Shown here: positions 1-63,804 of the stretch, in pieces | Position numbering within the stretch: the stretch's first letter is position 1 | Layout of the letters: every line of letters begins with the position of its first letter | Assembly (NCBI GenBank): GCA_964019135.1 | Contig: OZ025260.1 | Coordinates: forward strand, 18,594,254 to 18,658,253 | Reading direction: 5' to 3' | Length of the DNA: 64,000 nucleotides | Source of the DNA: Arenicola marina | Taxonomy: Eukaryota > Annelida > Polychaeta > Arenicolidae | The notes under the pieces: model-generated | The model's input: only the letters and a program-made list of their open reading frames with translations | Told to the model about the DNA's origin: nothing | Databases searched by the model: none | Position numbers and translations under genes: made by a program

Positions 1-838
1 TAAAGAATTTATTTGATTTCAATGCCGCTTTATTGGTAAACAAATCAACACGCAACAATGTCAGATAACATATGAGCGACGTCCCGTTTGATAGTGTACT
101 CAGGGAAAATGCGACTGGACCCATGTAACTACTCGTTGGTGACCATGTCCTTGACGTAGCATTGAAGGCGCGGCATGGGTAAAGAACTTGTGTTGAGTGT
201 CGCTTGGTTCTGTTCCTGCCTGTATGGTTGGCGATGAGGATGATAACGACAAGCGATTTCGTTTGAAATTCGACTGACTGTCGATTTCGTTGGCCCGAAG
301 TGAATATCCGAGGTTTGAAGCCGACCCCTTGCCAGGATGTTGTCTTTTTGTGGAGTTGTCTGTTGAAGACAGCAGTTTGCTTTCCGGGGAAGAGTTGCTG
401 GTGTAGGTCCCTGGTGGGATCTCGCATACGCGTGTTAGCCAGCCACTTTTTGACCTGGTTGACCGAGATATTCCCGTGTCGAGATATATAGTGGACTACA
501 TAATCGGAAGGATATGGGTGATGGCGGTTGAGAGTGTACCACTGCTCCAACATGTCAACAGCTGTTCTACTGAGATAGCGGCTTGCTCTTTTGGAGCGCT
601 TGGTGGAATTGTCAGATACCGCAGAAGGTGTAGCGTCCGTTGATGACAGCGTAACGTCACTCTGGTAGCCGCTGTCTACAGTTGGCCAAGTTCTCATTAA
701 AGGCCTGACCAGCGATAAGTAGCAGCCATTCTGATGAATCTGTCCTCCACGGATCGTAGGTTTGATTTGTGCCACTGGGCATGGAACGGTGGTCGGCATC
801 GAGTTATCCTCCCAGGGACGGAAGAACTTTGTAGACAT
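1..838 (-). pseudogene. TALE homeobox gene copy 0, frameshifted
   Basis: The start codon is at 836-838 and the normal stop would be at 100-102, but the interval is 739 bp instead of 738. The extra base is an A at about 405, a few codons after the homeodomain. FRPW and the homeodomain are intact. Beyond the insertion the alternative frame stays open through the normal stop, through the AATAAA site and to the window edge. A transcript cleaved at the usual site would therefore have no in-frame stop. The unit also lacks 24 bp of upstream spacer near 1215 that other copies have. Confidence 0.85.
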
Positions 839-2037
839 CTTCAGTTGGTGAATAATTAGCCGAAGCGATGACACTTGATAACAGATCAAAGTTGATGATT
901 GAGATTTGTTGTGCACGTGCAAGTCAAGTGAACGCAGATCCAACTGAACTTCTATTTTCTCATCAGAATGCACTTGTAGTGAAACGAAAATGCTTTCCAC
1001 TGAAATTGCTCTTCCACCGAGTGAATTTGATTTTGTCTGAAGCGCAATAAATGTTGGAATGAAGCATTACGCCAAGCTGGACAATTTATATAACCCTGGG
1101 CTAGCCGATTTTGCTATCCAATGACGCGCGTGGGTGATCTAGATACAGAAGTGTCACGTTCAGCTGTGTCAACGGGTTTTAGATGCTCAGTAAAGTGTCA
1201 AAAGACACTAATTGCACCTGTTAACTTAGTGTGCACTTCTTTTGTTGATACTAATAGTTGGGTAAAACGATGCAGTCCTATGCAATGGGTGTACATTAGA
1301 CATGCAGAGAAAAACAATGTTGATGACTTTTTGATGGAAAAGGACTTCTAAGTAAAAATCCCTCTATTTATTGAAAGCTACAATTTTCTGACAAATTAGG
1401 TGCATCGACTTCAGCAACTTTAACATATTTTTCCTCGATTGTTGCTTATCGCACAAATTGACAATTAGACTGGTTTGCGAGTTGCTCTTTACACATATAA
1501 TTTGTGGAAACGATAAATTTGAGGTATATTTATGTGCATAGTTAGTTAACACATGAACTATTTGGGGATGGCAATTCAAAATTTAGAAATATAAACAGTG
1601 GAGATGAATAAGTGAGATTATGAACATATTTGAAAGCAGTTAGGTCAGCAACATGACGTTCGAATTGGTTTGGCCGTGTGTTGCAATCATGATTTAAGTG
1701 AATTGAAGTCAAACAGATTCTGAAATGACTATGTGCACTGAAAGAGTACAAGAACCCAGAACTGTAGTTAGCTAAAGCTGCAAGTCGTGTGTAAACAACC
1801 AGTGTAAAGGAATCGATTGCATGAAAGCTTTGCCCGCAAGAGATCATTGACGTAGAACTGTAGTTGTTTAATGCTGCAAGTCATGTGTAAAATACCGGCG
1901 TAAAAGAATTGTGGCAGTCTTGCCTGGCGGGTCAAGCAAAGTTACATTTCTTAATAACTAGGGCACCTTATCCACACAAATGCAGCCATGGACGTAATGG
2001 CGTTGCGATTAAAGAATTTATTTGATTTCAATGCCAT

Positions 2038-2043
2038 TTTATT
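2038..2043 (-). terminator. Poly(A) signal AATAAA, copy 1
   Basis: AATAAA on the minus strand lies 66-71 nt past the stop. A second AATAAA follows at 2017-2022. The same pair is present in most units. Confidence 0.7.
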
Positions 2044-2108
2044 GGTAAACAAATCAACACGCAACAATGTCAGATAACATATGAGCGACGTCCCGTTTGA
2101 TAGTGTAC

Positions 2109-2846
2109 TCAGGGAAAATGCGACTTGACCCATGTAACTACTCGTTGGTGACCATGTCCTTGACGTAGCATTGAAGGCGCGGCATGGGTAAAGAACTTGT
2201 GTTGAGTGTCGCTTGGTTCTGTTCCTGCCTGTATGGTTGGCGATGAGGATGATAACGACAAGCGATTTCGTTTGAAATTCGACTGACTGTCGATTTCGTT
2301 GGCCCGAAGTGAATATCCGAGGTTTGAAGCCGACCTCTTGCCAGGATGTTGTCTTTTTGTGGAGTTGTCTGTTGAAGACAGCAGTTTGCTTTCCGGGGAA
2401 GAGTTGCTGGTGTGGTCCCTGGTTGGATCTCGCATACGCGTGTTAGCCAGCCACTTTTTGACCTGGTTGACTGAGATATTCCCGTGTCGAGATATGTAGT
2501 GGACTACATAATCGGAAGGATATGGGTGATGGCGGTTGAGAGAGTACCACTGCTCCAACATGTCGACAGCTGTTCTACTGAGATAGCGGCTTGCTCTTTT
2601 GGAGCGCTTGGTGGAATTGTGATATACCGCAGAAGGTGTAGCGTCCGTTGATGACAGCGTAACGTCACTCTGGTAGCCGCTGTCTACAGTTAGCCAAGTT
2701 CTCATTAAAGGCCTGACAAGCGATGAGTAGCAGCCATTCTGATGAATCTGTCCTCCACGGATCGTAGGTTTGATTTGTGCCACTGGGCATGGAACGGTGG
2801 TCGGCATCGAGTTATCCTCCCAGGGACGGAAGAACTTTGTAGACAT
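2109..2846 (-). CDS. TALE homeodomain protein, copy 1 (245 aa, intact)
   Basis: I predict a nuclear DNA-binding transcription factor, probably a repressor. The ATG at 2844-2846 has an A at -3. The frame continues 54 codons further upstream to a GTG, but without any ATG, and the diverged inverted copy does not keep that leader as codons. The protein reads FRPW at residues 6-9, a conserved Pro/Thr N-terminal region, basic KRSKR at 80-84, then a TALE homeodomain of about 63 residues. That domain has P-Y-P at 108-110 and helix 3 carrying W132, L133, A134, N135, R137 and R139 (homeodomain positions 48, 49, 50, 51, 53, 55). The tail has a basic stretch near 164 and a Ser run at 197-202. Leu replaces Pro in the RTWP segment, a change private to this copy. 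Single exon; AATAAA at 2038-2043. Position 50 = Ala resembles Iroquois/Mohawk, but I cannot assign a family below TALE. Confidence 0.88.
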   Translation of the reverse strand: MSTKFFRPWEDNSMPTTVPCPVAQIKPTIRGGQIHQNGCYSSLVRPLMRTWLTVDSGYQSDVTLSSTDATPSAVYHNSTKRSKRASRYLSRTAVDMLEQWYSLNRHHPYPSDYVVHYISRHGNISVNQVKKWLANTRMRDPTRDHTSNSSPESKLLSSTDNSTKRQHPGKRSASNLGYSLRANEIDSQSNFKRNRLSLSSSSPTIQAGTEPSDTQHKFFTHAAPSMLRQGHGHQRVVTWVKSHFP

Positions 2847-3063: not shown

Positions 3064-3100
3064 AGAATGAAGCATTACGCCAAGCTGGACAATTTATATA
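3064..3100 (-). promoter_or_regulatory. Core promoter (TATA + Inr), copy 1
   Basis: TATATAAA occupies 3100-3093 and a perfect YYANWYY initiator (TCATTCT) occupies 3070-3064. There are 32 nt from the first T of TATA to the initiator A at 3068, which is normal spacing. The predicted leader is about 222 nt and contains one minimal uORF (ATG AGA AAA TAG). Confidence 0.65.
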
Positions 3101-4037
3101 ACCCTGGGCTAGCCGATTTTGCTATCCAAGGACGCGTGTGGGTGATCTAGATACAGAAGTGTCACGTTGAGCTGTGTCAACGGGTTGTAGATGCTCAGTA
3201 AAGTGTCAAAAGACACTAATTGCAATCAAGTCTTATTGCTGTCTTCGCACCTGTTAACTTAGTGTGCACTTCTTTTGTTGATACTAATAGTTGGGTAAAA
3301 CGATACAGTCCTATGCAATGGGTGTACATTAGAGATGCAGAGAAAAACAATGTTGATGACTCTTTGATGGAAAATGACTTCTATGTAAACATCCCTCTAT
3401 TTATTGAAAGCTACAATTTTCTGACAAATTAGGTGTATCGACTTCAGCAACTTTAACATATTTTTCCTCGATTGCTGCTTATCGCACAAATTGACAATTA
3501 GACTGGTTTGCGAGTTGCTCTTTACACATATAATTTGTGGAAACGATAAATATGAGGTATATTTACGTGCATAGTTAGTTAACACATGAACTATTTGGGG
3601 ATGGCAATTCAAAATTTAGAAATATAAACAGTGGAGATGAATAAGTGAGATTATGAACATATTTGAAAGCAGTTAGGTCAGCAACATGACGTTGGAATTG
3701 GTTTGGCCGTGTGTTGCAATCATGATTTAAGTGAATTGAAGTCAATCAGATTCTGAAATGACTATGTGCACTGGAAGAGTAAAAGAACCCAGAACTGTAG
3801 TTACCTAAAGCTGCAAGTCGTGTGTAAAATACCAATGTAAAGGAATCGATTGCATGAAAGCTTTGCCCGCATGAGATCATTGACGTAGAACTGTAGTTGT
3901 TTAATGCTGCAAGTCATGTGTAAAATACCGGCGTAAAAGAATTGTGGCAGTCTTGCCTGGCGGGTCAAGCAAAGTTACATTTCTTAATAACTAGGGCACC
4001 TTATCCACACATATGCAGCCATGGACGTAATGGCGTT
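3101..4037. other. Inter-gene spacer of the unit (representative)
   Basis: This is the stretch between the copy-1 promoter and the copy-2 3' region. Apart from the TGACA cluster it is AT-rich, with short open frames of about 60-70 codons that start with TTG and lack ATG, so I call no gene. Four of the five retroelements sit directly after the spacer motif GAAGTCAATCAGAT (present here near 3742-3755). The equivalent spacer occurs in every unit. Confidence 0.7.
3160..3217 (-). promoter_or_regulatory. TGACA-core cluster upstream of the TATA box (copy 1 example)
   Basis: Three TGACA cores on the minus strand lie at 3160-3164, 3175-3179 and 3204-3208. The last is part of a perfect inverted repeat, AGTGTC-AAAA-GACACT, at 3202-3217. 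TGACA is the known core of MEIS/TGIF-type TALE sites. The cluster recurs about 314 bp upstream of the start in the other units, though the hairpin has lost a G in some B-type units. Confidence 0.35.
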
Positions 4038-4070
4038 GGGATTGAAGAAGTTATTTGATTTTAATGCCGT

Positions 4071-4141: not shown

Positions 4142-4879
4142 TCAGGGAAAATGCGACTTGACCCATGTAACTACTCGTTGGTGACCATGTCCTTGACGTA
4201 GCATTGAAGGCGCGGCATGGGTAAAGAACTTGTGTTGAGTGTCGCTTGGTTCTGTTCCTGCCTGTATGGTTGGAGATGAGGATGATAACGACAAGCGATT
4301 TCGTTTGAAATTCGACTGACTGTCGATTTCGTTGGCCCGAAGTGAATATCCGAGGTTTGAAGCCGACCCCTTGCCAGGATGTTGTCTTTTTGTGGAGTTG
4401 TCTGTTGAAGACAGCAGTTTGCTTTCCGGGGAAGGGTTGCTGGTGTGGTCCCTGGTGGGATCTCGCATACGCGTGTTAGCCAACCACTTTTTGACCTGGT
4501 TGACTGAGATATTCCCGTGTCGAGATATGCAGTGGACTACATAATCGGAAGGATATGGGTGATGGCGGTTGAGAGAGTACCACTGCTCCAACATGTCAAC
4601 AGCTGTTCTACTGAGATAGCGGCTTGCTCTTTTGGAGCGCTTGGTGGAATTGTGATATACCGCAGAAGGTGTAGCGTCCGTTGATGACAGCGTAACGTCA
4701 CTCTGGTAGCCGCTGTCTACAGTTGGCCAAGTTCTCATTAAAGGCCTGACCAGCGATGAGTAGCAGCCATTCTGATGAATCTGTCCTCCACGGATCGTAG
4801 GTTTGATTTGTGCCACTGGGCATGGAACGGTGGTCGGCATCGAGTTATCCTCCCAGGGACGGAAGAACTTTGTAGACAT
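4142..4879 (-). CDS. TALE homeodomain protein, copy 2 (245 aa, intact)
   Basis: Full-length frame of 738 bp from the ATG at 4877-4879, with the same layout as copy 1: FRPW, TALE homeodomain with P-Y-P loop, W-L-A-N-T-R-M-R helix 3, Ser-rich tail. Differences include Tyr to Cys in helix 2 (VVHC) and Asn-Pro after the homeodomain (SNPSP). It shares these and 3'-flank markers with the copies at 50516 and 17090, so those form a subfamily. AATAAA is at 4071-4076. All DNA-contact residues expected of a homeodomain (R53, N51) are kept. Confidence 0.87.
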   Translation of the reverse strand: MSTKFFRPWEDNSMPTTVPCPVAQIKPTIRGGQIHQNGCYSSLVRPLMRTWPTVDSGYQSDVTLSSTDATPSAVYHNSTKRSKRASRYLSRTAVDMLEQWYSLNRHHPYPSDYVVHCISRHGNISVNQVKKWLANTRMRDPTRDHTSNPSPESKLLSSTDNSTKRQHPGKGSASNLGYSLRANEIDSQSNFKRNRLSLSSSSPTIQAGTEPSDTQHKFFTHAAPSMLRQGHGHQRVVTWVKSHFP

Positions 4880-6174: not shown

Positions 6175-6912
6175 TCAGGGAAAATGCGACTTGACCCATG
6201 TAACTACTCGTTGGTGACCATGTCCTTGACGTAGCATTGAAGGCGCGGCATGGGTAAAGAACTTGTGTTGAGTGTCGCTTGGTTCTGTTCCTGCCTGTAT
6301 GGTTGGAGAGGAGGATGATAACGACAAGCGATTTCGTTTGAAATTCGACTGACTGTCGATTTCGTTGGCCCGAAGTGAATATCCGAGGTTTGAAGCCGAC
6401 CCCTCGCCAGGATGTTGTCTTTTTGTGGAGTTGTCTGTTGAAGACAGCAGTTTGCTTTCCGGGGAAGAGTGGCTGGTGTGGTCCCAGGTGGGATCTCGCA
6501 TAGGCGTGTTAGCCAGCCACTTTTTGACCTGGTTGACTGAGATATTCCCGTGTCGAGATATGTAGTGGACTACATAATCGGAAGGATATGGGTGATGGCG
6601 GTTGAGAGAGTACCACTGCTCCAACATGTCGACAGCTGTTCTACTGAGATAGCGGCTTGTTCTTTTGGAGCGCTTGGTGGAATTGTGAGCTACCGCAGAG
6701 GGTGTAGCGTCCGTTGATGACAGCGCAACGTCACTCTGGTAGCCGCTGTCTACAGTTGGCCAAGTTCTCATTAAAGGCCTGACCAACGATGAGTAACACC
6801 CTTTCTGATGAATCTGTCCTCCACGTATCGTAGGTTTGATTTGTGCCACTGGGCATGGAACGGTGGTCGGCATCGAGTTATCCTCCAAGGGACGGAAGAA
6901 CTTTGTAGACAT
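6175..6912 (-). CDS. TALE homeobox copy 3: full frame but FRPW and Arg53 lost
   Basis: The frame is complete (245 codons), but two key sites are substituted. The FRPW Trp is Leu (FFRPLED), and homeodomain Arg53, an invariant DNA-backbone contact, is Pro (ANTPMR), which should also break helix 3. A Trp also follows the domain (DPTWD). The reading frame therefore probably does not make a working DNA-binding protein. Promoter and AATAAA (6104-6109) look normal. It could be called a pseudogene; I keep it as CDS only because the frame is open. Confidence 0.7.
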   Translation of the reverse strand: MSTKFFRPLEDNSMPTTVPCPVAQIKPTIRGGQIHQKGCYSSLVRPLMRTWPTVDSGYQSDVALSSTDATPSAVAHNSTKRSKRTSRYLSRTAVDMLEQWYSLNRHHPYPSDYVVHYISRHGNISVNQVKKWLANTPMRDPTWDHTSHSSPESKLLSSTDNSTKRQHPGEGSASNLGYSLRANEIDSQSNFKRNRLSLSSSSPTIQAGTEPSDTQHKFFTHAAPSMLRQGHGHQRVVTWVKSHFP

Positions 6913-7817: not shown

Positions 7818-9240
7818 GCTAACCACTCCACCAGATTGGCGCTAGTGCTTTTAACAGATCGAATAGTCTCTGCAATAGATAAGGGTGAGTTCACATGAGG
7901 GATATTCTTAGACTTCTCAAAAGCTTAACATGGTTAATCACGAAATTCTTTTATTGAAACTCGAACGATACGGGATTCGGGGAGTAACTCTAAAATGGCT
8001 TGACAGTTATTTAGATTCAAGGTACCAGTATGTGGAATATAACCACACTAAGTCATCAAGGTCAAAAATCAACTGTGGGGTGCCTCAAGGATCTACTCTT
8101 GGTCCCCTGTTATTTTTAATTTATATTAATGATATTGCCCAGGTCAGTGCGAAACTATTCAGTATTTTATTTGCTGATGACTCTAACTTTTTTATATCGG
8201 GTAAAGATATTGCCGATGTGACTTCTACCCTGAATTCTGAACTGGAAAAAATTTGATACTGGCTGCAATTAAACAAACTCACGCTCAACCTTGGGAAGAC
8301 AAAGTTCATGATATTTAAATCTCCTCGTAAAAAAATTACCATGCAGAGCGAAATCGTGATGGCAGGAGAAATCATTACACAAGTAAATACTATAAAATTC
8401 CTTGGGGTTCAACTTGACTCTGGTTTACTTTGGATAGACCATGTACACTATATAAAGGGCAAAATAGCTAGGGGGTTAGGAATCCTTACAAAGGCCAGAA
8501 AGGTGTTTAAAAGTGAAACCTTACGTATGTTATACTATAGTTTTATATTTCCATATCTTTCGTATGTTATCGAATTATGGGGAGCTGCATTTGAATCCTA
8601 TGTTAAGCCATTGAATACTCTGCAGAAAAGAGCTATCAGAATCTTATATGGTGCTCCTAAACTTGCTCATACTAAACCACTTTTTGTCTCCAATAATCTT
8701 CTACCCTTAGCCTCCCTGTATGAATATAAGATGTTAATTTTTATGTACAGGCAATACCATGAGATACATCCAGAAATTATAAAGAAAATGTTTGTCCGAA
8801 ACCAAGATGTTCATAAGTATGCAAAAAGAGCGTCCAATAACCTACGAGCGCCACAATATAGAAATAGTTGTATGAAGATGTCAGTTAGAAATATGGGAAC
8901 GCGTGTATTTAATACGTGGTTTACCAGGCTTAACTTTCTATGCTCTATACATGTTTTTAAGAGAACGGGAAAAAGTATGTTGTTAAAAGAAATTACCTAA
9001 CAATATCTGAGTGATTAAACAGTTATTTTGTGTACGGCATTATTATGAAAAAATCTGTTTAATTTTACATATATATATATATATATAGATCTTTTTTTTT
9101 TTTTTTTTTTTTTGGGGGGGGGTATTCATTTTGTTCTTTTTGTTCCTTTTGCACGAGCATATAAGCACCGCTTCAACCCTGTTTGCACATGAAGATGTAA
9201 TGTACATGTTTTTTAGATGCAATAAACCTATTATTATCAT
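7818..9240 (+). mobile_element. 5'-truncated jockey/CR1-like non-LTR retrotransposon, copy R1
   Basis: The element begins inside a reverse transcriptase domain (RVT_1). The palm motif GVPQGSTLGPLLF and catalytic FADD are readable in the fragment at 7930-8256, and the C-terminal LGVQLDSGLLW and thumb/connection part at 8308-8998. The frame is broken by an in-frame TGA at 8254-8256, another TGA upstream, and a 5-bp loss that destroys the first catalytic motif (the FSKAFD region), which other copies keep. The 3' end has a TA repeat, a T-run and G-run, AATAAA and a short ATT tail. It lies opposite to the homeobox genes. No intact enzyme is possible. Confidence 0.88.
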
Positions 9241-9816: not shown

Positions 9817-10554
9817 TCAGGGAACATGCGACTTAACCCATGTAACTACTCGTTGGTGACCATGTCCTTGACGTAGCATTGAAGGCGCGGCATGGGTAAA
9901 GAATTTGAGTTGAGTGTCGCTTGGTTATGTTCCTGCCTGTATGGTTGGAGATGAGGATGATAACGACAAGCCATTTCGTTTGAAATTCGACTGACTGTCG
10001 ATTTCGTTGGCCCGAAGTGAATATCCGAGGGTTGAAGCCGACCGCTTGCCAGGTTGTTGTCTTTTTGTGGAGTTGTCTGTTCAAGACAGCAGTTTGCTTT
10101 CCGGGGAAGAGTTGCTGGTGTGGTCCGTAGTGGGATCTCGCATACCCGTGTTAGCCAGCCACTTTCTGACCTGGTTGACTGAGATATTCCCGTGTCGAGA
10201 TATGTAGTGGACTACATAATCGGAAGGATATGGGTGATGGCGGTTGAGAGAGCACCACTGCTCCAACATGTCGACAGCTGTTCTACTGAGATAGCGGCTT
10301 GCTCTTTTAGAGCGCTTGGTGGAATTGTGAGATACCGCAGAAGCAGTAGCGTCCGTTGATGACAGCGTAACGTCACTCTGGTAGCCGCTGTCTACAGTTG
10401 GCCAAGTTCTCATTAAAGGCCTGACCAGCGATGAGTAGCAGCTATTCTGATGAATCTGTCCTCCACGGATCGTAGGTTTGATTTGTGCCACTGGGCATGG
10501 AACGGTGGTCGGCATCGAGTTATCCTCCCAGGGACGGAAGAACTTTGTAGACAT
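9817..10554 (-). pseudogene. TALE homeobox copy 4, B-type: premature stop and Arg53Gly
   Basis: First of six B-type copies. The interval is the normal 738 bp, but a TCA to TGA change at 10081-10083 stops translation after 157 residues. This leaves FRPW and the homeodomain without the Ser-rich tail. Within the homeodomain Arg53 is Gly (ANTGMR), and DPTTD replaces DPTRD. The usual AATAAA is also destroyed (AATAAA to CTAAGA); only the second signal remains. It could make a truncated FRPW protein with weakened DNA binding, or be a dead copy. Amplification without decay of the remaining frame keeps the first option open. Confidence 0.8.
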
Positions 10555-11847: not shown

Positions 11848-12585
11848 TCAGGGAAAATGCGACTTGACCCATGTAACTACTCGTTGGTGACCATGTCCTT
11901 GACGTAGCATTGAAGACGCGGCATGGGTAAAGAACTTGTGTTGAGTGTCGCTTGGTTCTGTTCCTGCCTGTATGGTTGGAGATGAGGATGATAACGACAA
12001 GCGATTTCGTTTCAAATTCGACTGACTGTCGAATTCGTTGGCCCGAAGTGAATATCCGAGGTTTGAAGCCGACCCCTTGCCAGGATGTTGTCTTTTTGTG
12101 GAGTTGTCTGTTGAAGACAGCAGTTTGCTTTCCGGGGAAGAGTTGCTGGTGTGGTCCCTGGTGGGATCTCGCATACGCGTGTTAGCCAGCCACTTTTTGA
12201 CCTGGTTGACTGAGATATTCCCGTGTCGAGATATATAGTGGACTACATAATCGGAAGGATATGGGTGATGGCGGTTGAGAGTGTACCACTGCTCCAACAT
12301 GTCGACAGCTGTTCTACTGAGATAGCGGCTTGCTCTTTTGGAGCGCTTGGTGGAATTGTCAGATACCGCAGAAGGTGTAGCGTCCGTTGATGACAGCGTA
12401 ACGTCACTCTGGTAGCCGCTGTCTACAGTTGGCCAAGTTCTCATTAAAGGCCTGACCAGCGATGAGTAGCAGCCATTCTGATGAAAATGTCCTCCACGGA
12501 TCGTAGGTTTGATTTGTGCCACTGGGCATGGAACGGTGGTCGGCATCGAGTTATCCTCCCAGGGACGGAAGAACTTTGTAGACAT
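11848..12585 (-). CDS. TALE homeodomain protein, copy 5 (245 aa, intact)
   Basis: Complete frame with FRPW, P-Y-P loop and W48/L49/A50/N51/R53/R55 all present. Private substitutions include His-Phe in place of Gln-Ile (GGHFHQ), Thr for Ser in helix 1 (WYTLN, shared with the copies at 46449 and 48482 and with copy 0), Phe-Asp and Leu in the tail (NEFDSQSNL) and a Pro to Ser near the C-terminus. AATAAA is at 11777-11782. This is among the copies most likely to be functional. Confidence 0.87.
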   Translation of the reverse strand: MSTKFFRPWEDNSMPTTVPCPVAQIKPTIRGGHFHQNGCYSSLVRPLMRTWPTVDSGYQSDVTLSSTDATPSAVSDNSTKRSKRASRYLSRTAVDMLEQWYTLNRHHPYPSDYVVHYISRHGNISVNQVKKWLANTRMRDPTRDHTSNSSPESKLLSSTDNSTKRQHPGKGSASNLGYSLRANEFDSQSNLKRNRLSLSSSSPTIQAGTEPSDTQHKFFTHAASSMLRQGHGHQRVVTWVKSHFP

Positions 12586-15856: not shown

Positions 15857-15952
15857 TCAACACGCAACAATGTCAGATAACACTGCCACTAGGCATGGAA
15901 CGGTGGTCGGCATCGAGTTATCCTCCCAGGGACGGAAGAACTTTGTAGACAT
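15857..15952 (-). pseudogene. TALE homeobox copy 7, homeodomain deleted
   Basis: The start codon at 15950-15952 and the N-terminal codons through MPTTVPC remain. About 700 bp are then missing with a junction at about 15,880-15,885, joining the 3' untranslated region straight to the N-terminal coding part. The residual frame has 31 codons. The homeodomain, the tail and the normal stop are gone, so the unit is about 1,335 bp long. Its upstream promoter region persists. Confidence 0.88.
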
Positions 15953-17089: not shown

Positions 17090-17983
17090 TTAATAACTAG
17101 GGCACCTTATCCACCAAAATACAGCCATGGACGTAATGGCGTTGCGATTGAAGAAGTTATTTGATTTTAATGCCGTTTTATTGGTAAACAAATCAACACG
17201 CAACAATGTCAGATAACATATGAGCGACGTCCCTTTTGATAATGTACTCGGAAAATGCGACTTGACCCATGTAACTACTCGTTGGTGACCATGTCCTTGA
17301 CGTAGCATTGAAGGCGCGGCATGGGTAAAGAACTTGCGTTGAGTGTCGCTTGGTTCTGTTCCTGCCTGTATGGTTGGAGATGAGGATGATAACGACAAGC
17401 GATTTCGTTTGAAATTCGACTGACTGTCGATTTCGTTGGCCCGAAGTGAATATCCGAGGTTTGAAGCCGACCCCTTGCCAGGATGTTGTCTTTTTGTGGA
17501 GTTGTCTGTTGAAGACAGCAGTTTGCTTTCCGGGGAAGGGTTGCTGGTGTGGTCCCTGGTGGGATTTCGCATACGCGTGTTAGCCAGCCACTTTTGGACC
17601 TGGTTGACTGAGATATTCCCGTGTCGAGATATGCAGTGGACTACATAATCGGAAGGATATGGGTGATGGCGGTTGAGAGAGTACCACTGCTCCAACATGT
17701 CAACAGCTGTTCTACTGAGATAGCGGCTTGCTCTTTTGGAGCGCTTGGTGGAATTGTGATATACCGCAGAAGGTGTAGCGTCCGTTGATGACAGCGTAAC
17801 GTCACTCTGGTAGCCGCTGTCTACAGTTGGCCAAGTTCTCATTAAAGGCCTGACCAGCGATGAGTAGCAGCCATTCTGATGAATCTGTCCTCCACGGATC
17901 GTAGGTTTGATTTGTGCCACTGGGCATGGAACGGTGGTCGGCATCGATTTATCCTCCCAGGGACGGAAGAACTTTGTAGACAT
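17090..17983 (-). CDS. TALE homeodomain protein, copy 8, stop lost (297 aa extended)
   Basis: FRPW and homeodomain are intact (K46Q, and Asn for Asp after helix 3: RMRNP). A 2-bp deletion at about 17,249-17,251 removes the normal stop and shifts into a frame that stays open for about 52 more codons, ending at 17090. The extension passes through the AATAAA at 17177-17182, so mRNA cleaved at the usual place would lack a stop codon and might be subject to non-stop decay. If a later poly(A) site is used, a longer protein results. Treat it as possibly non-functional. Confidence 0.65.
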   Translation of the reverse strand: MSTKFFRPWEDKSMPTTVPCPVAQIKPTIRGGQIHQNGCYSSLVRPLMRTWPTVDSGYQSDVTLSSTDATPSAVYHNSTKRSKRASRYLSRTAVDMLEQWYSLNRHHPYPSDYVVHCISRHGNISVNQVQKWLANTRMRNPTRDHTSNPSPESKLLSSTDNSTKRQHPGKGSASNLGYSLRANEIDSQSNFKRNRLSLSSSSPTIQAGTEPSDTQRKFFTHAAPSMLRQGHGHQRVVTWVKSHFPSTLSKGTSLICYLTLLRVDLFTNKTALKSNNFFNRNAITSMAVFWWIRCPSY

Positions 17984-19278: not shown

Positions 19279-20016
19279 TCAGGGAAAATGCGACTTGACC
19301 CATGTAACTACTCGTTGGTGACCATGTCCTTGACGTAGCATTGATGGCGCGGCATGGGTAAAGAACTTGTGTTGAGTGTCGCTTGGTTCTGTTCCTGCAT
19401 GTATGGTTGGAGATGAGGATGATAACGACAAGCGATTTCGTTTGAAATTCGACTGACTGTCGATTTCGTTGGCCCGAAGTGAATATCCGAGGTTTGAAGC
19501 CGACCCCTCGCCAGGATGTTGCCTTTTAGTGGAGTTGTCTGTTGAAGACAGCAGTTTGCTTTCCGGGGAAGAGTTGCTGGTGTGGTCCCTGGTGGGATCT
19601 CGCATACGCGTGTTAGCCAGCCACTTTTTGACCTGGTTGACTGAGATATTCCCGTGTCGAGATATGTAGTGGACTACATAATCGGAAGGATATGGGTGAT
19701 GGCGGTTGAGAGAGTACCACTGTTCCAACATGTCGACAGCTGTTCTACTGAGATAGCGGCTTGCTCTTTTGGAGCGCTTGGTGAAATTGTGAGATACCGC
19801 AGAGGGTGTAGCGTCCGTTGATGACAGCGCAACGTCACTCTGGTAGCCGCTGTCTACAGTTGGCCAAGTTCTCATTAAAGGCCTGACCAACGATGAGTAG
19901 CACCCTTTCTGATGAATCTGTCCTCCACGGATCGTAGGTTTGATTTGTGCCACTGGGCATGGAACGGTGGTCGATATCGAGTTATCCTCCCAGGGACGGA
20001 AGAACTTTGTAGACAT
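19279..20016 (-). CDS. TALE homeodomain protein, copy 9 (245 aa, intact)
   Basis: Full frame with FRPW and all helix-3 contact residues. Private or semi-private changes are Ile-Ser for Met-Pro (NSISTTV, shared with copies near 39-45 kb and 56 kb), Lys in HQKGC, Phe in HNFTKRSKR and His for Gln in the Ser-rich tail. The TATA box is kept, although the base after it is C (TATACCCC on the plus strand). AATAAA is at 19208-19213. Confidence 0.86.
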   Translation of the reverse strand: MSTKFFRPWEDNSISTTVPCPVAQIKPTIRGGQIHQKGCYSSLVRPLMRTWPTVDSGYQSDVALSSTDATPSAVSHNFTKRSKRASRYLSRTAVDMLEQWYSLNRHHPYPSDYVVHYISRHGNISVNQVKKWLANTRMRDPTRDHTSNSSPESKLLSSTDNSTKRQHPGEGSASNLGYSLRANEIDSQSNFKRNRLSLSSSSPTIHAGTEPSDTQHKFFTHAAPSMLRQGHGHQRVVTWVKSHFP

Positions 20017-21310: not shown

Positions 21311-22048
21311 TCAGGGAAAATGCGACTTGACCCATGTAACTACTCGTTGGTGACCATGTCCTTGACGTAGCATTGAAGGCGCGGCATGGGTAAAGAACTT
21401 GTGTTGAGTGTCGCTTGGTTCTGTTCCTGCCTGTATGGTTGGATAGGAGGATGATAACGACAAGCGATTTCGTTTGAAATTCGACTGACTGTCGATGTCG
21501 TTGGCCCGAAGTGAATATCCGAAGTTTGGAGCCGACCCCTTGCCAGGATGTTGTCTTTTTGTGGAGTTGTCTGTTGAAGACAGCAGTTTGCTTTCCGGGG
21601 AAGAGTTGCTGGTGTGGTCCCTGGTGGGACCTCGCATACGCGTGTTAGCCAGCCACTTTTTGACCTGGTTGACTGAGATATTCCCGTGTCGAGATATGTA
21701 GTGGACTACATAATCGGAAGAATATGGGTGATGGCGGTTGAGAGAGTACCACTGCTCCAACATGTCGACAGCTGTTCTACTGAGATAGCGGCTTGCTCTT
21801 TTGGAGCGCTTGGTGGAATTGTGAGAGACCGCAGAGGGTGTAGCGTCCGTTTATGACAGCGTAACGTCATTCTGGTAGCCGCTGTCTACAGTTGGCCAAG
21901 TTCTCATTAAAGGCCTGACCAGCGATGAGTAGCAGCCATTCTGATGAATCTGTCCTCCACGGATCGTAGGTTTGATTTGTGCCACTGGGCATGGAACGGT
22001 GGTCGGCATCGAGTTATCCTCCCAGGGACGGAAGAACTTTGTAGACAT
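21311..22048 (-). pseudogene. TALE homeobox copy 10, nonsense before the homeodomain
   Basis: The 738-bp interval is conserved, but TCA to TAA at 21851-21853 stops the protein after 65 residues, before the homeodomain. The downstream part still encodes an open homeodomain and tail (with Pro to Ser in the loop, HPYSSDY), and an internal ATG at 21761-21763 could start a 150-aa product lacking the domain's N-terminal arm. I see no reason to think that is used. The 5' half of this unit belongs to the first copy of the 5.67-kb higher-order repeat. Confidence 0.85.
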
Positions 22049-25687: not shown

Positions 25688-27146
25688 CTTCAGTTGGTGA
25701 ACAATTAGCCGAAGCGATGACCCTTGATAATAGATCAAAGTTGACGATTGAGATTTGTTGTGCACGTGCAAGTCAAGTGAACGCAAATCCAAATGAACTG
25801 CTATTTTCTCATCAGAATGCCCTTGTAGTGAAACGAAAATGCTTTCCACTAAAATTGCTCTTCCACCGAGTAAATTTGGTTTCGTCTGAAGCGCAATAAA
25901 TGTTGGAATGAAGCATTACGCCAAGCTGGACAATTTATATAACCCTTGGCTAGCCGATTTTGCTATCCAATGACGCGTGTGGGTGATCTAGATACAAAAG
26001 TGTCACGTTAAGCTATGCCAACGGGTTGTAGATGCTCAGTAAAGTGTCAAAAGACACTAATTGCAATCAAGTTTTATTGCTGTCTTCGCACCTGTTAACT
26101 TAGCGTGCACTTCTTTTGTTGATACTAATAGTTGGGTGAAACGATGCAGTCCTATGCAATGGGTGTACATTAGACATGCAGAGAAAAAAAATGTTGATGA
26201 CTTTTTGATGGAAAAGGACTTCTATGTAAAAATCCCTCTATTTATTGAAAGCTACAATTTTCTGACAAATAAGGTGTATCTACTTCAGCAACTTTAACAG
26301 ATTTTTTCTCGATTGTTGCTTATCGCACAAATTGAAAATTAGACTGCTTTGCGAGTTGCTCTTTACACATATAATTTGTAGAAACGATAAATATGAGGTA
26401 TATTTATGTGCATAGTTAGTTAACACATGAACTATTTGGGGATGGCAATTCAAAATTTAGAAATATAAACAGTGGAGATGAATAAGTGAGATTATGAACA
26501 TATTTGAAAGCAGTTAGGTCAGCAACATGACGTTGGAATTGGTTTGGCCGTGTGTTGCAATCATGATTTATGTGAATTGAAGTCAATCAGATTCTGAAAT
26601 GACTATGTGCACTGGAAGCGTGCAAGAACCCAGAACTGTAGTTAGCTAAAGCTGCAAGTCCTGTGTAAAATACCAGTGTAAAAGAATCGATTGCATGAAA
26701 GCCTTGCATGCAAGAGATCATGGACGTAGAACTGTAGTTGTTTAATGCTGCAAGTCATGTGTAAAATACCGGCGTCAAAGAATTGTGGCAGTCTTGCCTG
26801 GCGGGTCAAGCAAAGTTACATTTCTTAATAACTAGGGCACCGTATCCACAAAAATGCAGCCATGGACGTAATGGCGTTGCGATTAAAGAATTTATTTGAT
26901 TTCAATGCCGCTTTATTGGTAAACAAATCAACACGCAACAATGTCAGATAACATATGAGCGACGTCCCTTTTGATAATGTACTCAGGGAAAATGCGACTT
27001 GACCCATATAACTACTAGTTGGTGACCATGTCCTTGACGTAGCATTGAAGGCGCGACATGGGTAAAGAACTTGTGTTGAGTGTCGCTTGGTTCTGTTCCT
27101 GCCTGTATGGTTGGAGATGAGGATGATAACGACAAGCGATTTCGTT

Positions 27147-27719
27147 TCAAATTCGACTGACTGTCGAATTCGTTGGCCCGAAGTGAATATCCGAGGTTTG
27201 AAGCCGACCCCTTGCCAGGATGTTGTCTTTTTGTGGAGTTGTCTGTTGAAGACAGCAGTTTGCTTTCGGGGAAGGGTTGCTGGTGTGGTCCCTGGTGGGA
27301 TCTCGCATACGCGTGTTAGCCAGCCACTTTTTGACCTGGTTGACTGAGATATTCCCGTGTCGAGATATGTAGTAGACTACATAATTGGAAGGATATGGGT
27401 GATGGCGGTTGAGATAGTACCACTGCTCCAATATGTCGACAGCTGTTCTACAGAGATAGCGGCTTGCTCTTTTGGAGCGCTTGGTGGAATTGTGAGATAC
27501 CGCAGAGGGTGTAGCGTCCGTTGATGACAGCGTAACGTCACTCTGGTAGCCGCTGTCTACAGTTGGCCAAGTTCTCATTAAAGGCCTGACCAGCGATGAG
27601 TAGCAGCCATTCTGATGAATCTGTCCTCCACGGATCGTAGGTTTGATTTGTGCCACTGGGCATGGAACGGTGGTCGGCATCGAGTTATCCTCCCAGGGAC
27701 GGAAGAACTTTGTAGACAT
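27147..27719 (-). pseudogene. TALE homeobox copy 12, shared 1-bp deletion
   Basis: One C is missing from the CCGGGG run at about 27,268, so the frame shifts about 13 residues after the homeodomain and ends at 27147 after 190 codons. The expected stop position (26983-26985) is 737 bp from the start. FRPW and the homeodomain are intact; Ser to Cys and Met to Ile changes occur at the start of helix 1 (YLCRTAVDILEQ). A protein with a different 39-residue tail is possible. The same deletion occurs in the copies at 32818, 38488, 40518 and 44582. Confidence 0.8.
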
Positions 27720-42384: not shown

Positions 42385-43122
42385 TCAGGGAAAATGCGAC
42401 TTGACCCATGTAACTACTCGTTGGTGACCATGTCCTTGACGTAGCATTGAAGGCGCGGCATGGGTAAAGAACTTGTGTTGAGTGTCGCTTGGTTCTGTTC
42501 CTGCCTGTATGGTTGGCGATGAGGATGATAACGACAAGCGATTTCGTTTGAAATTCGACTGACTGTCGATTTCGTTGGCCCGAAGTGAATATCCGAGGTT
42601 TGAAGCCGATTCCTTGCCAGGATGTTGTCTTTTTGTGGAGTTGTCTGTTGAAGACAGCAGTTTGCTTTCCGGGGAAGATTTGCTTTTGTGGTCCCTGGTT
42701 GGATCTCGCATACGCGTGTTAGCCAGCCACTTTTTGACCTGGTTGACTGAGATATTCCCGTGTCGAGATATGTAGTGGACTACATAATCGGAAGGATATG
42801 GGTGATGGCGGTTGAGAGAGTACCACTGCTCCAACATGTCGACAGCTGTTCTACTGAGATACCGGCTTGCTCTTTTGGAGCGCTTGGTGGAATTGTGATA
42901 TACCGCAGAAGGTGTAGCGTCCGTTGATGACAGCGTAACGTCACTCTGGTAGCCGCTGTCTACAGGTGGCCAAGTTCTCATTAAAGGCCTGACCAGCGAG
43001 GAGTAGCAGCCATTCTGATGAATCTGTCCTCCGCGGATCGTAGGTTTGATTTGTGCCACTGGGCATGGAACGGTGGTCGATATCGAGTTATCCTCCCAGG
43101 GACGGAAGAACTTTGTAGACAT
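42385..43122 (-). CDS. TALE homeodomain protein, copy 18 (245 aa, intact)
   Basis: Full frame with FRPW, P-Y-P loop, N51 and R53. Differences: NSISTTV, RTWPP, two Lys in DHKSKSS after the homeodomain and Glu in GKESAS. The 3' region matches copy 1 (CCATTTTATT variant). AATAAA is at 42314-42319. A functional product is plausible. Confidence 0.86.
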   Translation of the reverse strand: MSTKFFRPWEDNSISTTVPCPVAQIKPTIRGGQIHQNGCYSSLVRPLMRTWPPVDSGYQSDVTLSSTDATPSAVYHNSTKRSKRASRYLSRTAVDMLEQWYSLNRHHPYPSDYVVHYISRHGNISVNQVKKWLANTRMRDPTRDHKSKSSPESKLLSSTDNSTKRQHPGKESASNLGYSLRANEIDSQSNFKRNRLSLSSSSPTIQAGTEPSDTQHKFFTHAAPSMLRQGHGHQRVVTWVKSHFP

Positions 43123-50515: not shown

Positions 50516-51253
50516 TCAGGGAAAATGCGACTTGACCCATGTAACTACTCGTTGGTAACCATGTCCTTGACGTAGCATTGAAGGCGCGGCATGGGTAAAG
50601 AACTTGTGTTGAGTGTCGCTTGGTTCTGTTCCTGCCTGTATGGTTGGAGATGAGGATGATAACGACAAGCGATTTCGTTTGAAATTCGACTGACTGTCGA
50701 TTTCGTTGGCCCGAAGTGAATATCCGAGGTTTGAAGCCGACCCCTTGCCAGGATGTTGTCTTTTTGTGGAGTTGTCTGTTGAAGACAGCAGTTTGCTTTC
50801 CGGGGAAGGGTTGCTGGTGTGGTCCCTGGTGGGATTTCGCATACGCGTGTTAGCCAGCCACTTTTTGACCTGGTTGACTGAGATATTCCCGTGTCGAGAT
50901 ATGCAGTGGACTACATAATCGGAAGGATATGGGTGATGGCGGTTGAGAGAGTACCACTGCTCCAACATGTCAACAGCTGTTCTACTGAGATAGCGGCTTG
51001 CTCTTTTGGAGCGCTTGGTGGAATTGTGATATACCGCAGAAGGTGTAGCGTTCGTGGATGACAGCGTAACGTCACTCTGGTAGCCGCTGTCTACAGTTGG
51101 CCAAGTTCTCATTAAAGGCCTGACCAGCGATGAGTAGCAGCCATTCTGATGAATCTGTCCTCCACGGATCGTAGGTTTGATTTGTGCCACTGGGCATGGA
51201 ACGGTGGTCGGCATCGAGTTATCCTCCCAGGGACGGAAGAACTTTGTAGACAT
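50516..51253 (-). CDS. TALE homeodomain protein, copy 22 (245 aa, intact)
   Basis: Complete frame, FRPW present, W48/L49/A50/N51/R53/R55 kept. Substitutions: Cys in helix 2 (VVHC), Asn after helix 3 (RMRNP), Asn in SSTNATP and Tyr near the end (HGYQRV). It is closest to copies 2 and 8; copy 2 lies 46,374 bp to the left in the corresponding block. AATAAA is at 50445-50450. Confidence 0.87.
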   Translation of the reverse strand: MSTKFFRPWEDNSMPTTVPCPVAQIKPTIRGGQIHQNGCYSSLVRPLMRTWPTVDSGYQSDVTLSSTNATPSAVYHNSTKRSKRASRYLSRTAVDMLEQWYSLNRHHPYPSDYVVHCISRHGNISVNQVKKWLANTRMRNPTRDHTSNPSPESKLLSSTDNSTKRQHPGKGSASNLGYSLRANEIDSQSNFKRNRLSLSSSSPTIQAGTEPSDTQHKFFTHAAPSMLRQGHGYQRVVTWVKSHFP

Positions 51254-54154: not shown

Positions 54155-54892
54155 TCAGGGAACATGCGACTTAACCCATGTAACTACTCGTTGGTGACCA
54201 TGTCCTTGACGTAGCATTGAAGGCGCGGCATGGGTAAAGAATTTGAGTTGAGTGTCGCTTGGTTATGTTCCTGCCTGTATGGTTGGAGATGAGGATGATA
54301 ACGACAAGCCATTTCGTTTCAAATTCGACTGACTGTCGATTTCGTTGGCCCGAAGTGAATATCCGAGGGTTGAAGCCGACCGCTTGCCAGGTTGTTGTCT
54401 TTTTGTGGAGTTGTCTGTTCAAGACAGCAGTTTGCTTTCCGGGGAAGAGTTGCTGGTGTGGTCCGTAGTGGGATCTCGCATACCCGTGTTAGCCAGCCAC
54501 TTTCTGACCTGGTTGACTGAGATATTCCCGTGTCGAGATATGTAGTGGACTACATAATCGGAAGGATATGGGTGATGGCGGTTGAGAGAGCACCACTGCT
54601 CCAACATGTCGACAGCTGTTCTACTGAGATAGCGGCTTGCTCTTTTGGAGCGCTTGGTGGAATTGTGAGATACCGCAGAGGGTGTAGCGTCCGTTGATGA
54701 CAGGGTAACGTCACTCTGGTAGCCGCTGTCTACAGTTGGCCAAGTTCTCATTAAAGGCCTGACCAGCGATGAGTAGCAGCCATTCTGATGAATCTGTCCT
54801 CCACGGATCGTAGGTTTGATTTGTGCCATTGGGCATGGAACGGCGGTCGGCATCGAGTTATCCTCCCAGGGACGGAAGAACTTTGTAGACAT
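54155..54892 (-). pseudogene. TALE homeobox copy 23, B-type
   Basis: Premature TGA at 54419-54421, Arg53Gly and lost first AATAAA. Unlike copies 6, 11, 13 and 15 it keeps Phe5 and has Pro in DATPSA, so it is the B copy closest to A-type in its 5' half. Confidence 0.8.
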
Positions 54893-56347: not shown

Positions 56348-56812
56348 TCAAATTCGACTGACTGTCGAATTCGTTGGATTGGATTCTGTCGGATCTCGCA
56401 TACGCGTGTTAGCCAGCCACTTTTTGACCTGGTTGACTGAGATATTCCCGTGTCGAGATATGTAGTGGACTACATAATCGGAAGGATATGGGTGATGGCG
56501 GTTGAGAGAGTACCACTGCTCCAACATGTCGACAGCTGTTCTACTGAGATAGCGGCTTGCTCTTTTGGAGCGCTTGGTGGAATTGTGAAATACCGCAGAG
56601 GGTGTAGCGTCCGTTGATGACAGCGTAACGTCACTCTGGTAGCCGCTGTCTACAGTTGGCCAAGTTCTCATTAAAGGCCTGACCAGCGAGGAGTAGCAGC
56701 CATTCTGATGAATCTGTCCTCCGCGGATCGTAGGTTTGATTTGTGCCACTGGGCATGGAACGGTGGTCGATATCGAGTTATCCTCCCAGGGACGGAAGAA
56801 CTTTGTAGACAT
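56348..56812 (-). pseudogene. TALE homeobox copy 24, internal deletion
   Basis: The start codon is at 56810-56812. FRPW and the whole homeodomain are present. A net 109 bp just after the homeodomain are missing, with about 13 bp of unrelated filler at 56,378-56,390, and the frame shifts and ends at 56348 (154 residues). This is the last minus-strand gene before the inversion. Its leader has an in-frame TAA, which further argues that the upstream leader is not coding. Confidence 0.85.
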
Positions 56813-57158
56813 CTTTAGTTGGCGAATAATTAGCCGAAGCGATGACACTTGATAACAGATCAAAGTTGATGATTGAGATTTGTTGTGCACGTGCAAGTCA
56901 AGTAAACGCAAATCCAAATGAACTTCTATTTTCTCATCAGAATGCACTTGTAGTTAAACGAAAATGCTTTCCACTAAAATTGCTCTTCCACCGAGTGAAT
57001 TTGATTTTGTCTGAAGCGCAATAAATGTTGGAATGAAGCATTACGCTTAGCTGGACAATTTATATAACCCTGGGCTAGCCGATTTTGCTATCCAAGGACG
57101 CGTGTGGGTGATCTAGATACAGAAGTGTCACATTGAGCTGTGTCAACGGGTTGTAGAT

Positions 57159-57242
57159 GTGTAAGGAGCCACTCGCTAAGCAGTTTAATTGTCAATTTAT
57201 GTGTAAGGAGCCACTCGCTAAGCAGTTTAATTGTCAATTTAT
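57159..57242. repeat. 42-bp tandem duplication at the inversion junction
   Basis: The segment at 57159-57200 is repeated at 57201-57242. It sits exactly where minus-strand unit sequence ends and inverted unit sequence begins. Confidence 0.85.
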
Positions 57243-57620
57243 GCGATAAGCAAGAGTCGAGTAAACATCATTTATTGTTGCTGAAGTGGATACACCTTAT
57301 TTGTCAGAAAATTGTATCTTTCAATAAAAATAAGGATTTTTAAATAGAAGCAGGTCTCCATCAAAAATTCAATAATATTGTTTTTCCCTCTAATGTACAT
57401 CCATGGCATAGGACTGAATCGTTTTTCAAAATGTTAGTTTCAACGAAAGAAGTGCGAACTAACTTAAGAGGTGCAAAGACAGCAATAACACTTGATTGCA
57501 ATTAATGTCTTTTGACACTTTACTGAGCATCTACAACCCGTTGACACTGCTCAACGTGCCACTATTGTATCTAAATCACCCACAAGCGCCCTTGGATGGC
57601 AAAATCGGCTATCCCAGGGT

Positions 57621-57657
57621 TATATAAATTGTCTAGTTGGGCGTAATGCTTCATTGC
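57621..57657 (+). promoter_or_regulatory. Core promoter of the inverted copy
   Basis: TATATAAA at 57621-57628 and an initiator-like TCATTGC at 57651-57657, again 32 nt apart. Conserved in the most diverged copy. The small leader uORF is also kept (ATG AGG AAA TAG). Confidence 0.55.
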
Positions 57658-57872
57658 AAAATTTATTGCGCTTCACACGAATTCAACTTCATTTGGCGAA
57701 AGAGCAATTTCAGTGGAATGCATTATTTTCGCTAAAAGCGCAACCTGATGAGGAAATAGAAGGTCATTTGGGTTTTCGTCCACTTCACTTGCACGTGCAC
57801 AACAAATTTCAATCACCAACCTTGATCTGTTGCCAAGGGTCATCGTTTCGGCTAATTATTCACCAACTGAAG

Positions 57873-58610
57873 ATGTCTACAAAGTTCTTCCGTCCCTGGG
57901 AGGATGACTCTGTGCCGACAACAGTTCCATGCCCTGTGGCACAAATCAAACCTACGATCCGCGGAGGACAGATGCATCATAATACCTAGCACTCATCGCT
58001 GGTCTGGCCTTTAGTGAGAAGTTGGCCAACTGTGGACGGCGGCTACCAGAGTGACGTTACGCTGTCATCCACGAACGCTACTGCTTCTGTGGCATCTCAC
58101 AATTCCACCAAGCGCCCAAAAAGAGCAAGCCGCTATCTCAGTGGAACAGCTGTCGACATGTTGGAGCAGTGGTACTCTCTCAACCGCCACCACCCATATC
58201 CTGCCGACTATGTAGTCCGCTACATATCTCGACACGGAAATATCTCAGTCAACCAAGTCAAAAAGTGGCTGGCTAACACGCGTATGCGAGACCCCACCAG
58301 GGACCACACCAGCAACTCTTCCCCGGATAGCAAACCGCCGTCTGCAATAGACAACTCCACTAAGAGACAACATCCTGGCAAGCGGTCGGCTTCCACCCTC
58401 GGATATTCACTTCGGGCCAACGAAACCGACAGTCAGTCGAATTTCAAACGAAATCGCTTGTCGTTATCATCCTCATCTCCAACCATACAGGCAGGAACAG
58501 AACCAAGCGACACTCAACCCAAGTTCTGTACCCATGCCGCGCCTCCAATGCTACGTCAAGGACATGGTCACAAACGAGTAGTTACATGGGTCAAGTCGCA
58601 TTTTCCCTGA
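57873..58610 (+). pseudogene. TALE homeobox copy 25, inverted, one nonsense codon
   Basis: The interval is 738 bp, as in the intact genes, with ATG at 57873-57875 and the stop ending at 58610. A single TAG at 57987-57989 (TGC in the others) breaks it after 38 residues. The rest remains in frame and encodes an intact homeodomain (helix 3 unchanged) and tail. Over about 65 homeodomain codons I count 5 synonymous base changes against 4 changed residues relative to the array consensus, which suggests the lineage was constrained before the stop arose. It is divergent, head to head with copy 24. Confidence 0.85.
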
Positions 58611-59562
58611 GTACATTATCAAAAGGGACGTCGCTCATATGTTATCTGACATTGTTGCGTGTTGATTTGTTTACCAATAAAACGGCATTGAAATCAAATA
58701 AATTCTTTAATCGCAACGCCATTACGTCCATGGCTGCATTTTTGTGGATAAGGTGCCCTAGTTATTAAGAAATGTAACTTTGCTTGACCCGCCAGGCAGG
58801 ACTGCCACAATTCTTTTACGCCTGTATTTTACACATGACTTGCAGCATTAAACAACTACAGTTCTACGTCAATGATCTCTTGCAGGCAAGGCTTTCATGC
58901 AATCGATTCTTTTACACTGGTATTTTACACACGACTTGCAGCTTTAGCTAACTACGGTTCTGGGTTCTTGTACTCTTCCAGTGCACATAGTCATTTCAGA
59001 ATCTGATTGACTTCAATTCACTTAAATCATGATTGCAACACACGGCCAAACCAATTCCAACGTCATGTTGCTGACCTAACTGCTTTCAAATATGTTCATA
59101 ATCTCACTTATTCATCTCCACTGTTTATATTTCTAAATTTTGAATGGCCATCCCCAAATAGTTCATGTGTTAACTAACTATGCACATAAATATACCTCAT
59201 ATTTATCGTTTCCACAAATTATATGTGTAAAGAGCAACTCGCAAACCAGTCTAATTGTCAATTTGTGCGATAAGCAACAATCGAGGAAAAATATGTTAAA
59301 GTTGCTGAAGGCGATACACCTAATTTGTCAGAAAATTGTAGCTTTCAATAAATAGAAGAATTTTTACATAGAAGTCCTTTTCCATCAAAAAGTCATAAAC
59401 ATTGTTTTTCTCTGCATGTCTAAATGTACACCCATTGCATAGGACTGCATCGCTTTACCCAACTATTAGTATCAACAAAAGAAGTGCACACTAAGTTAAC
59501 AGGTGCCAGACAGCAATAAGACTTGATTGCAATTAGTGTCTTTTGACACTTTACTGAGCATC

Positions 59563-63800: not shown

Positions 63801-63804
63801 TATT

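Follow-up and report, generated by a model that had tools for sequence, protein, structure and literature searches.

The window analyzed here, a stretch of 64,000 nucleotides from the polychaete Arenicola marina (contig OZ025260.1, hereafter C13; C13:18594254-18658253 in an assembly of 867 Mb in 762 contigs), was found to lie in the middle of a tandem array of short intronless TALE homeobox genes, which is one of three such arrays in the genome. Judged from sequence, the probability is about one half that the three tandem arrays, including the one sampled by the window, are dosage arrays of SPILE-type (spiralian-specific TALE) factors, which would be fired together in early cleavage. A more far-reaching proposal, in which about 600 TALE genes in three unlinked arrays would form one co-regulated unit, a counterpart of the DUX macrosatellite acting in early cleavage through copy-number dose and a self-reinforcing feedback via a family-bound TGAT/ATTA element, is possible but doubtful. 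The points in favor of the dosage reading are the self-contained gene cassettes, the three related arrays, the full frames kept by 82 of the 133 coding sequences (CDS) read, the shared upstream element, the constraint between two C13 subfamilies, the QVKK motif, and the early expression of relatives in oyster, limpet and mussel.

The spacing of shared 15-mers in the window peaked at 2033, 2032 and 2031 bp, and BLAST of one unit against the window revealed minus-strand units arranged head-to-tail from position 1 to 57159, with one intronless TALE homeobox gene each and the array extending left beyond the window. A total of 26 CDS-bearing units were counted, including 25 CDS copies of 425 bp or more and one 69-bp stub (15884..15952, minus strand) in a unit with most of its gene lost, and the figure of at least 26 copies in 59.5 kb given in an earlier note on this DNA was thus confirmed. 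The sole ATG-started frame of at least 80 amino acids (aa) in the unit encodes a protein of 245 aa, and the search for a second gene found no further frame of that length. In all 24 minus-strand copies tested, the TATA box TATATAAATT was located exactly at -254 relative to the ATG (26 boxes in the window; example at 3091..3100, minus strand). AATAAA poly(A) signals were found downstream of the stop codon, for example two after the CDS at 2109-2846 (2015..2045, minus strand). The period, the TATA box and the AATAAA signals agree with the earlier description, that of a megasatellite-like array in which each 2,033-bp unit carries a whole intronless TALE gene along with its promoter and poly(A) signals. 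No structured RNA was matched in the window by Rfam at gathering scores, and nothing useful was matched in the NCBIfam search.

The size proposed for the array held within the window and was an understatement for the genome, since the array passes the left and right limits of the window and is one of three, with about 600 units by extrapolation. The C13 array is approximately 235 kb long and begins at about C13:18.5105 Mb; its right end lies at 18.7447-18.750 Mb, as placed by a positive probe at 18.744 and six negative probes at 18.750-18.870. To the right of the window a second C13 subfamily (c13b) with a period of about 1,943 bp was found, and to the left 19 of 26 non-partial CDS rows were intact. 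The C14 array covers about 750 kb, with its left end at 2.500-2.550 Mb and its right end at 3.299-3.308 Mb (interior probes 8/8 positive, outside probes 15/15 negative), and is built of 2,117-bp units with complete TALE genes of 376 aa. The C4 array, with units of about 1,910 bp and complete TALE genes of 274 aa, covers about 262 kb from ~11.355 Mb to ~11.618 Mb; its five interior probes were all positive, and no array sequence was found by probes at 11.300, 11.340, 11.345 and 11.650 Mb. Dividing span by period gave about 110 units for C13, 355 for C14 and 135 for C4, a total of about 600 that presumes no long breaks between probes.

Full frames among the CDS rows directly read were distributed as 27/55 in c13, 18/21 in c13b, 20/25 in c14 and 17/32 in c4. 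Of the other 51 rows, 21 retain the homeodomain and in 11 it is broken; a further 17 are partial and 2 have no ATG, and both of the latter groups include copies cut at stretch ends. In a Homeobox_KN profile search of the genome, the best 150 of 707 candidates were from the C14 array (123), the C4 array (20), a solo gene beside C4 (1) and six single places, and none of these 150 contained internal stops; this best-150 list favors strong matches, because no C13 copy was among it. Solo relatives were observed beside two arrays, one at C13:18.463 Mb (stretch L027, 8826-9617; diverged, 264-aa frame) and one at ~11.6217 Mb of C4 (stretch L018, 5667-6392, minus strand; diverged, 321-aa frame), and both are perhaps near the founders.

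The gene class was verified by the profile hidden Markov model search that the earlier note had proposed: Homeobox_KN (PF05920) matched the C13 protein at 38.3 bits, above its cut-off of 24, and C14 and C4 array proteins also scored above the cut-off in the genome profile search. The plain Homeodomain model gave 19.3 bits on the C13 protein, below its cut-off of 22.9. The nearest solved structures by sequence were Extradenticle and PBX1, and the C13 homeodomain aligned with that of Extradenticle, a TALE protein, gap-free over 58 residues, which is consistent with the three-residue loop extension. In the AlphaFold model of the C13 protein only the three homeodomain helices are predicted to be ordered (mean predicted local distance difference test score 51 overall, 81-92 at residues 91-140). 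Homeodomain structures ranked highest in Foldseek (best 4cyc_B, E value 1.0e-3), with none at or below the 0.001 line.

An affinity with SPILE genes had also been suggested, and strict membership was tested in part. In an alignment of six proteins from the three families 36 columns were invariant, 22 of them in the homeodomain, and both an N-terminal RPW motif and the homeodomain QVKK motif were invariant in the C13, C4 and C14 families. QVKK is the motif given for TALE clade VI, seen only in molluscs within the data presented in PMC5322547. The array proteins of the three families contain one homeodomain each, compared to two in SPILE-B or TALE-IV genes. In SPILE A and C genes the homeodomain is preceded by a PADRE domain of some 90 residues (PMC8524836). 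Upstream of the homeodomain, the C14 protein resembles the product of a single-copy gene on C1 over a long region (27%, 299 columns, E value 2e-23), which might correspond to a PADRE domain. No PADRE-like upstream region was found in the C13 proteins (by BLASTP; only 81 residues precede the homeodomain) or in the C4 proteins. A single gene on C9 (C9:13450993-13454112, minus strand) has an open frame of 651 codons or more that encodes two TALE homeodomains and is SPILE-B/TALE-IV-like; the string NTLxFNGSIHPK is common to the C4 family and the flank of its first homeodomain. The protein from C9 could possibly bind a composite site with two cores.

The homeodomain tree of 17 rows placed the arrays together with C1 and C9 apart from TGIF, PKNOX, EXD and rows that we take to be IRX- and MKX-like, with ultrafast bootstrap and Shimodaira-Hasegawa-like approximate likelihood ratio supports of 79/87. 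The same split was recovered under a second model (74/83), and its support is moderate; C13 and its solo relative were joined at 100, and most other forks were weak. The residue after the tryptophan of the recognition helix, which is phenylalanine in most homeodomains, was leucine in C13 (WLANTR, residues 132-137), methionine in C4 and the first C9 homeodomain, and phenylalanine in C14. The WLANTR string presumably places alanine at homeodomain position 50. Isoleucine, alanine or glycine is carried at this position by TALE genes (PMC5322547). The suggested kinship held, and the best reading of the predicted proteins is that the array genes are SPILE-type TALE genes, with one homeodomain in an otherwise disordered protein.

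The promoters of the C13, C4 and C14 families barely align with one another, and a TATA-like box and AATAAA were found in each (the boxes of C4 and C14 and every initiator were read by eye). A short element upstream of the TATA box is nevertheless shared. The 16-bp word TTGATTGCAATTAGTG is identical in C13 (-383) and C4 (-333), and in 300 shuffles the chance words had a mean of 10 and none reached 16 bp. The C14 version, TTGATAGCAATTAG, is located at -406. The best three-way 14-mer contained one mismatch in total, compared to at least four in 300 shuffles. This 14-mer, TTGATWGCAATTAG, was exact in 92 of 109 testable upstream regions, carried one mismatch in 13 and was missing in 4, with 7 further regions too short for the test. 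In the window 22 exact copies of the element as TTGATTGCAATTAG were found (example at 3216..3229, minus strand, at -383). It occurs in a single orientation at -330 to -443 from the ATG, mostly at one position per family, and up to one mismatch it was absent from 66,058 bases of non-array loci (3.1 kb of them counted twice). In its reverse complement, CTAATTGCWATCAA, a TAAT core lies 3 or 4 bases from an ATCA (TGAT) core, and the single base differing among the families falls outside both. The cores of TTGATWGCAATTAG look like a PBX/TALE-like TGAT beside a homeodomain-like ATTA. A similar arrangement is described for the DUX4 site TAAYBBAATCA, in which one homeodomain reads TAAT and the other TGAT (PMC12376486). 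Between the C13 subfamilies 65 of 66 columns were conserved in a block around the element (P 0.07), which is suggestive only.

The element might instead promote duplication, by recombination or replication, so that the families carrying it grow into arrays without any role in transcription. All three amplified families carry it, it was not seen upstream of any of the four single-copy relatives (C1, C9 and the solo genes of C13 and C4), and this restriction to amplified families makes a duplication role conceivable. The single orientation, the narrow, promoter-like range upstream of the TATA box, and the resemblance of the two cores to homeodomain and TALE sites make this explanation very improbable.

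The earlier statement that seven copies keep a full frame was reproduced, as the 245-aa frame is present in 7 of 25 scorable window CDS copies, at 2109..2846, 4142..4879, 6175..6912, 11848..12585, 19279..20016, 42385..43122 and 50516..51253 (all of the window copies given in this paragraph are on the minus strand). One copy with a changed C-terminus encodes 297 aa (17090..17983), one is frame-shifted after the homeodomain (100..838), six end at 157 aa (9817..10554, 13881-14618, 24950-25687, 30621-31358, 36291-37028 and 54155-54892) and four at 190 aa (26983..27719, 32654-33390, 38324-39060 and 40355-41090). The homeodomain (residues 82-143) is retained in all of these classes. The rest comprised one copy of 154 aa with an internal deletion (56388..56812, with its 3' part at 56184-56377) and five broken before or inside the homeodomain, including those at 21311..22048 (65 aa), 44418-45154 (57 aa), 46449-47186 (87 aa) and 48482-49220 (90 aa). 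Four near-identical copies to the left of the window (C13:18567916, 18574015, 18582150 and 18588251) represent one variant, in which a stop occurs at codon 10 and an in-frame ATG later on.

Turnover of the array was evaluated in 43 units of a contiguous 114-kb block of C13, in which the mean pairwise divergence was 3.9% and the maximum 9.3%. The homogenisation like that of ribosomal DNA claimed in the earlier note was an overstatement for this array, which is moderately homogenised, although the sampled C14 copies were 99.5% identical in CDS. A C13 unit often has its nearest copy at a distance of two or three units, and there are 5.67-kb blocks that recur unchanged, a pattern that fits unequal crossing-over together with block duplication. 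Five minus-strand units of the window contain an inserted piece of roughly 1.4 kb, a fragment of a retrotransposon without long terminal repeats that holds part of the reverse transcriptase (7821..9238, plus strand; amplified copies at 22957-24370, 28628-30041, 34299-35711 and 52162-53575). The five pieces share one unit position, are 98.0-100% alike and look like one insertion multiplied along with the units. A transposon-borne unit was considered separately and set aside, the copies seen being tandem apart from one diverged solo relative beside each of the C13 and C4 arrays, although no full search for scattered copies was made. Inflation of the copy number by collapse, haplotype duplication or misjoins in the assembly would be in line with the identity of some 5.67-kb blocks and with the 200-N gap beside an inverted stretch in the locus. 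The divergence among units means that distinct copies must exist, and different units were found in three arrays on three chromosome-size contigs, so this is the least probable of the explanations considered.

Compared to simulation, the distinct mutations inside the arrays fall nearly as they would without selection: 57 silent, 138 missense and 8 nonsense in c13 (simulated 53, 140 and 10), 23, 67 and 2 in c13b (24, 64 and 4), 8, 20 and 0 in c14 (7, 20 and 1), and 40, 94 and 1 in c4 (37, 92 and 6). The nonsense deficit of c4 (P 0.014) carries no weight in the argument, many P-values having been computed. Between the C13 subfamilies, the ratio of nonsynonymous to synonymous substitution rates (dN/dS) was 0.43 overall and 0.18 in the homeodomain. 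Silent changes were above chance (23 vs 14.9, P 0.011), also in the homeodomain alone (7 vs 3.1, P 0.013), and no silent excess was found in the C-terminal part (P 0.44). The subfamilies are 92% identical in CDS, 89% in the upstream 450 bp and 69% in the downstream flank. Gene conversion between neighbors could blur the selection signal. These comparisons indicated, at the level of sequence, that single copies are expendable and decaying and that the consensus homeodomain and promoter are kept in the C13 subfamilies.

The near-neutral pattern inside the arrays is one of several points that weigh against dosage arrays. Only 7 of 25 window copies are full, and the ratio of nonsynonymous to synonymous polymorphism in intact copies was 0.52 in c13, 0.70 in c13b, 1.18 in c14 and 0.69 in c4. 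A general SPILE role of the element is weakened because it was not found upstream of the four single-copy relatives, and a common ancestor of the C13 and C4 families could have handed it down, though the surrounding sequence no longer aligns. In addition, the Shx genes of moths, published as arrays of up to 165 loci for which the authors proposed a mutational cause, suggest that mutation alone can explain huge homeobox arrays (PMC9977156). The main rival is neutral runaway amplification, in which loci prone to tandem duplication accumulate tolerated extra copies, a few of them working and the rest satellite-like. The near-neutral mutation pattern, the many broken copies in the window, the Shx precedent and the retrotransposon piece multiplied with the units speak for it. 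The occurrence of three unlinked arrays of one gene class, the presence of the element in 105 of 109 upstream regions (one mismatch allowed), the silent excess between the C13 subfamilies, and the high intact fraction in c13b, in c14 and to the left of the window speak against it, and it is a serious contender that we hold to be less probable than dosage.

Genetic conflict was weighed on the same data. Selfish or antagonistic multicopy genes, engaged in drive or in a contest between copies and truncated homeodomain-only versions, would expand by an arms race and not for dosage, as the fast copy growth on three chromosomes and the window copies truncated after the homeodomain (6 and 4) might suggest. 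No sign of positive selection was found, dN/dS between the C13 subfamilies is below 1, and distinct disabling changes were judged by eye to be about equal before and after the homeodomain, so conflict is unlikely; on the last of these grounds the homeodomain-only truncated copies were also set aside as a selected class.

Under the dosage reading, the mechanism starts from the observed unit, a complete short intronless gene with a TATA-type promoter, a TALE homeodomain protein and AATAAA. The units would multiply through unequal crossing-over and block duplication, as the distance of nearest copies and the identical 5.67-kb blocks suggest. The element TTGATWGCAATTAG would turn on all three arrays jointly, bound by homeodomain proteins, perhaps the SPILE-B-like protein with two homeodomains or the products of the arrays themselves. 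Activation would occur in early cleavage, when short cell cycles may cap the output of one gene and many short parallel promoters could provide a burst of a cell-fate regulator. This firing of dosage devices in early cleavage is proposed because short intronless genes with TATA promoters are suited to cleavage-stage transcription (PMC4654234). Novel TALE genes of oyster are expressed from egg to blastula (PMC5322547), and SPILE genes are expressed in cleavage blastomeres of limpet and mussel (PMC8524836).

Other features of the locus were located at the right side of the window and in the spacers. The minus-strand array meets an inverted stretch at a junction with a 42-bp direct repeat (57157..57243, no strand assigned). 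The inverted unit or units (57194..59562, plus strand) reach an assembly gap of 200 N within the array locus (59563..59762) and contain a CDS of the second subfamily (57873-58610, plus strand) broken at codon 39. For the inverted stretch around the gap (window 57157-59762), a true inversion and a scaffolding error are not distinguishable from sequence. From 59763 to 64000 the window holds non-array DNA (about 4.2 kb) that includes GTCA, GTCT and ATAC runs as well as a run of poly-T, and past about 4.4 kb of other DNA the array pieces resume in both orientations (stretch L023, 179-657). Within the spacer of each unit lies a direct repeat of about 56-79 bp with 74-88% identity (unit positions 1763-1838 and 1879-1951 of 2,033).

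Tandem expansion of homeobox genes is known; the novelty here lies in its scale, in the presence of three arrays and in the 14-bp element that they share. No report of satellite-scale TALE homeobox arrays was found in literature searches of one open-access library. The arrays resemble SPILE genes in the TALE homeodomain, the QVKK of TALE clade VI and fast lineage-specific duplication, but differ in the C13 and C4 proteins without a PADRE-like region and in about 600 extrapolated units, compared to 9 SPILE A/C genes in the limpet Lottia (PMC8524836) and 16 members in one leech TALE clade. Eight near-identical tandem SPILE copies are described in Lottia and seven on one scaffold in a chiton (PMC8524836, PMC5322547). 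By analogy, the nearest known design appears to be D4Z4/DUX4, which, like the shared element, goes unmentioned in the earlier note. There the tandemly repeated unit is a homeobox gene that needs no introns for its protein; the factor reads a composite site with TAAT and TGAT cores comparable to those of the element, and it is expressed at zygotic genome activation in mammals (PMC12376486). DUX4 has two homeodomains of another class, whereas here one TALE homeodomain, an intact promoter and poly(A) signal inside the unit, and three distinct arrays were found. The moth Shx genes, the largest published homeobox array found for comparison at 165 loci, are likewise huge tandem arrays, associated with long interspersed nuclear elements in some species; they are derived from Hox3 and lie in the Hox cluster, unlike the TALE class, three unlinked loci, satellite-like period and common element of A. 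marina (PMC9977156). The fast early zygotic regulators of C. elegans are cell-fate genes that are also short, intron-poor and recently duplicated, supposedly to increase the dose of transcript, but they have a few paralogs each and no satellite-scale arrays. Hundreds of short intronless genes in tandem, with a copy number that serves cleavage, form the early histone arrays of sea urchins, which differ in encoding histones, not a regulatory factor, with several genes per unit.

Homeobox genes are usually kept at few copies, and here three satellite-scale arrays of them were found in one genome. Expressed arrays would show that copy number can meet the need of an early animal embryo for enough of a transcription factor, by a route independent of the mammalian DUX arrays, and would link the known rapid turnover of spiralian TALE genes to a mechanism. 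If they are silent, they would be an extreme case of neutral gene-array growth. The common element makes the dosage and neutral readings separable.

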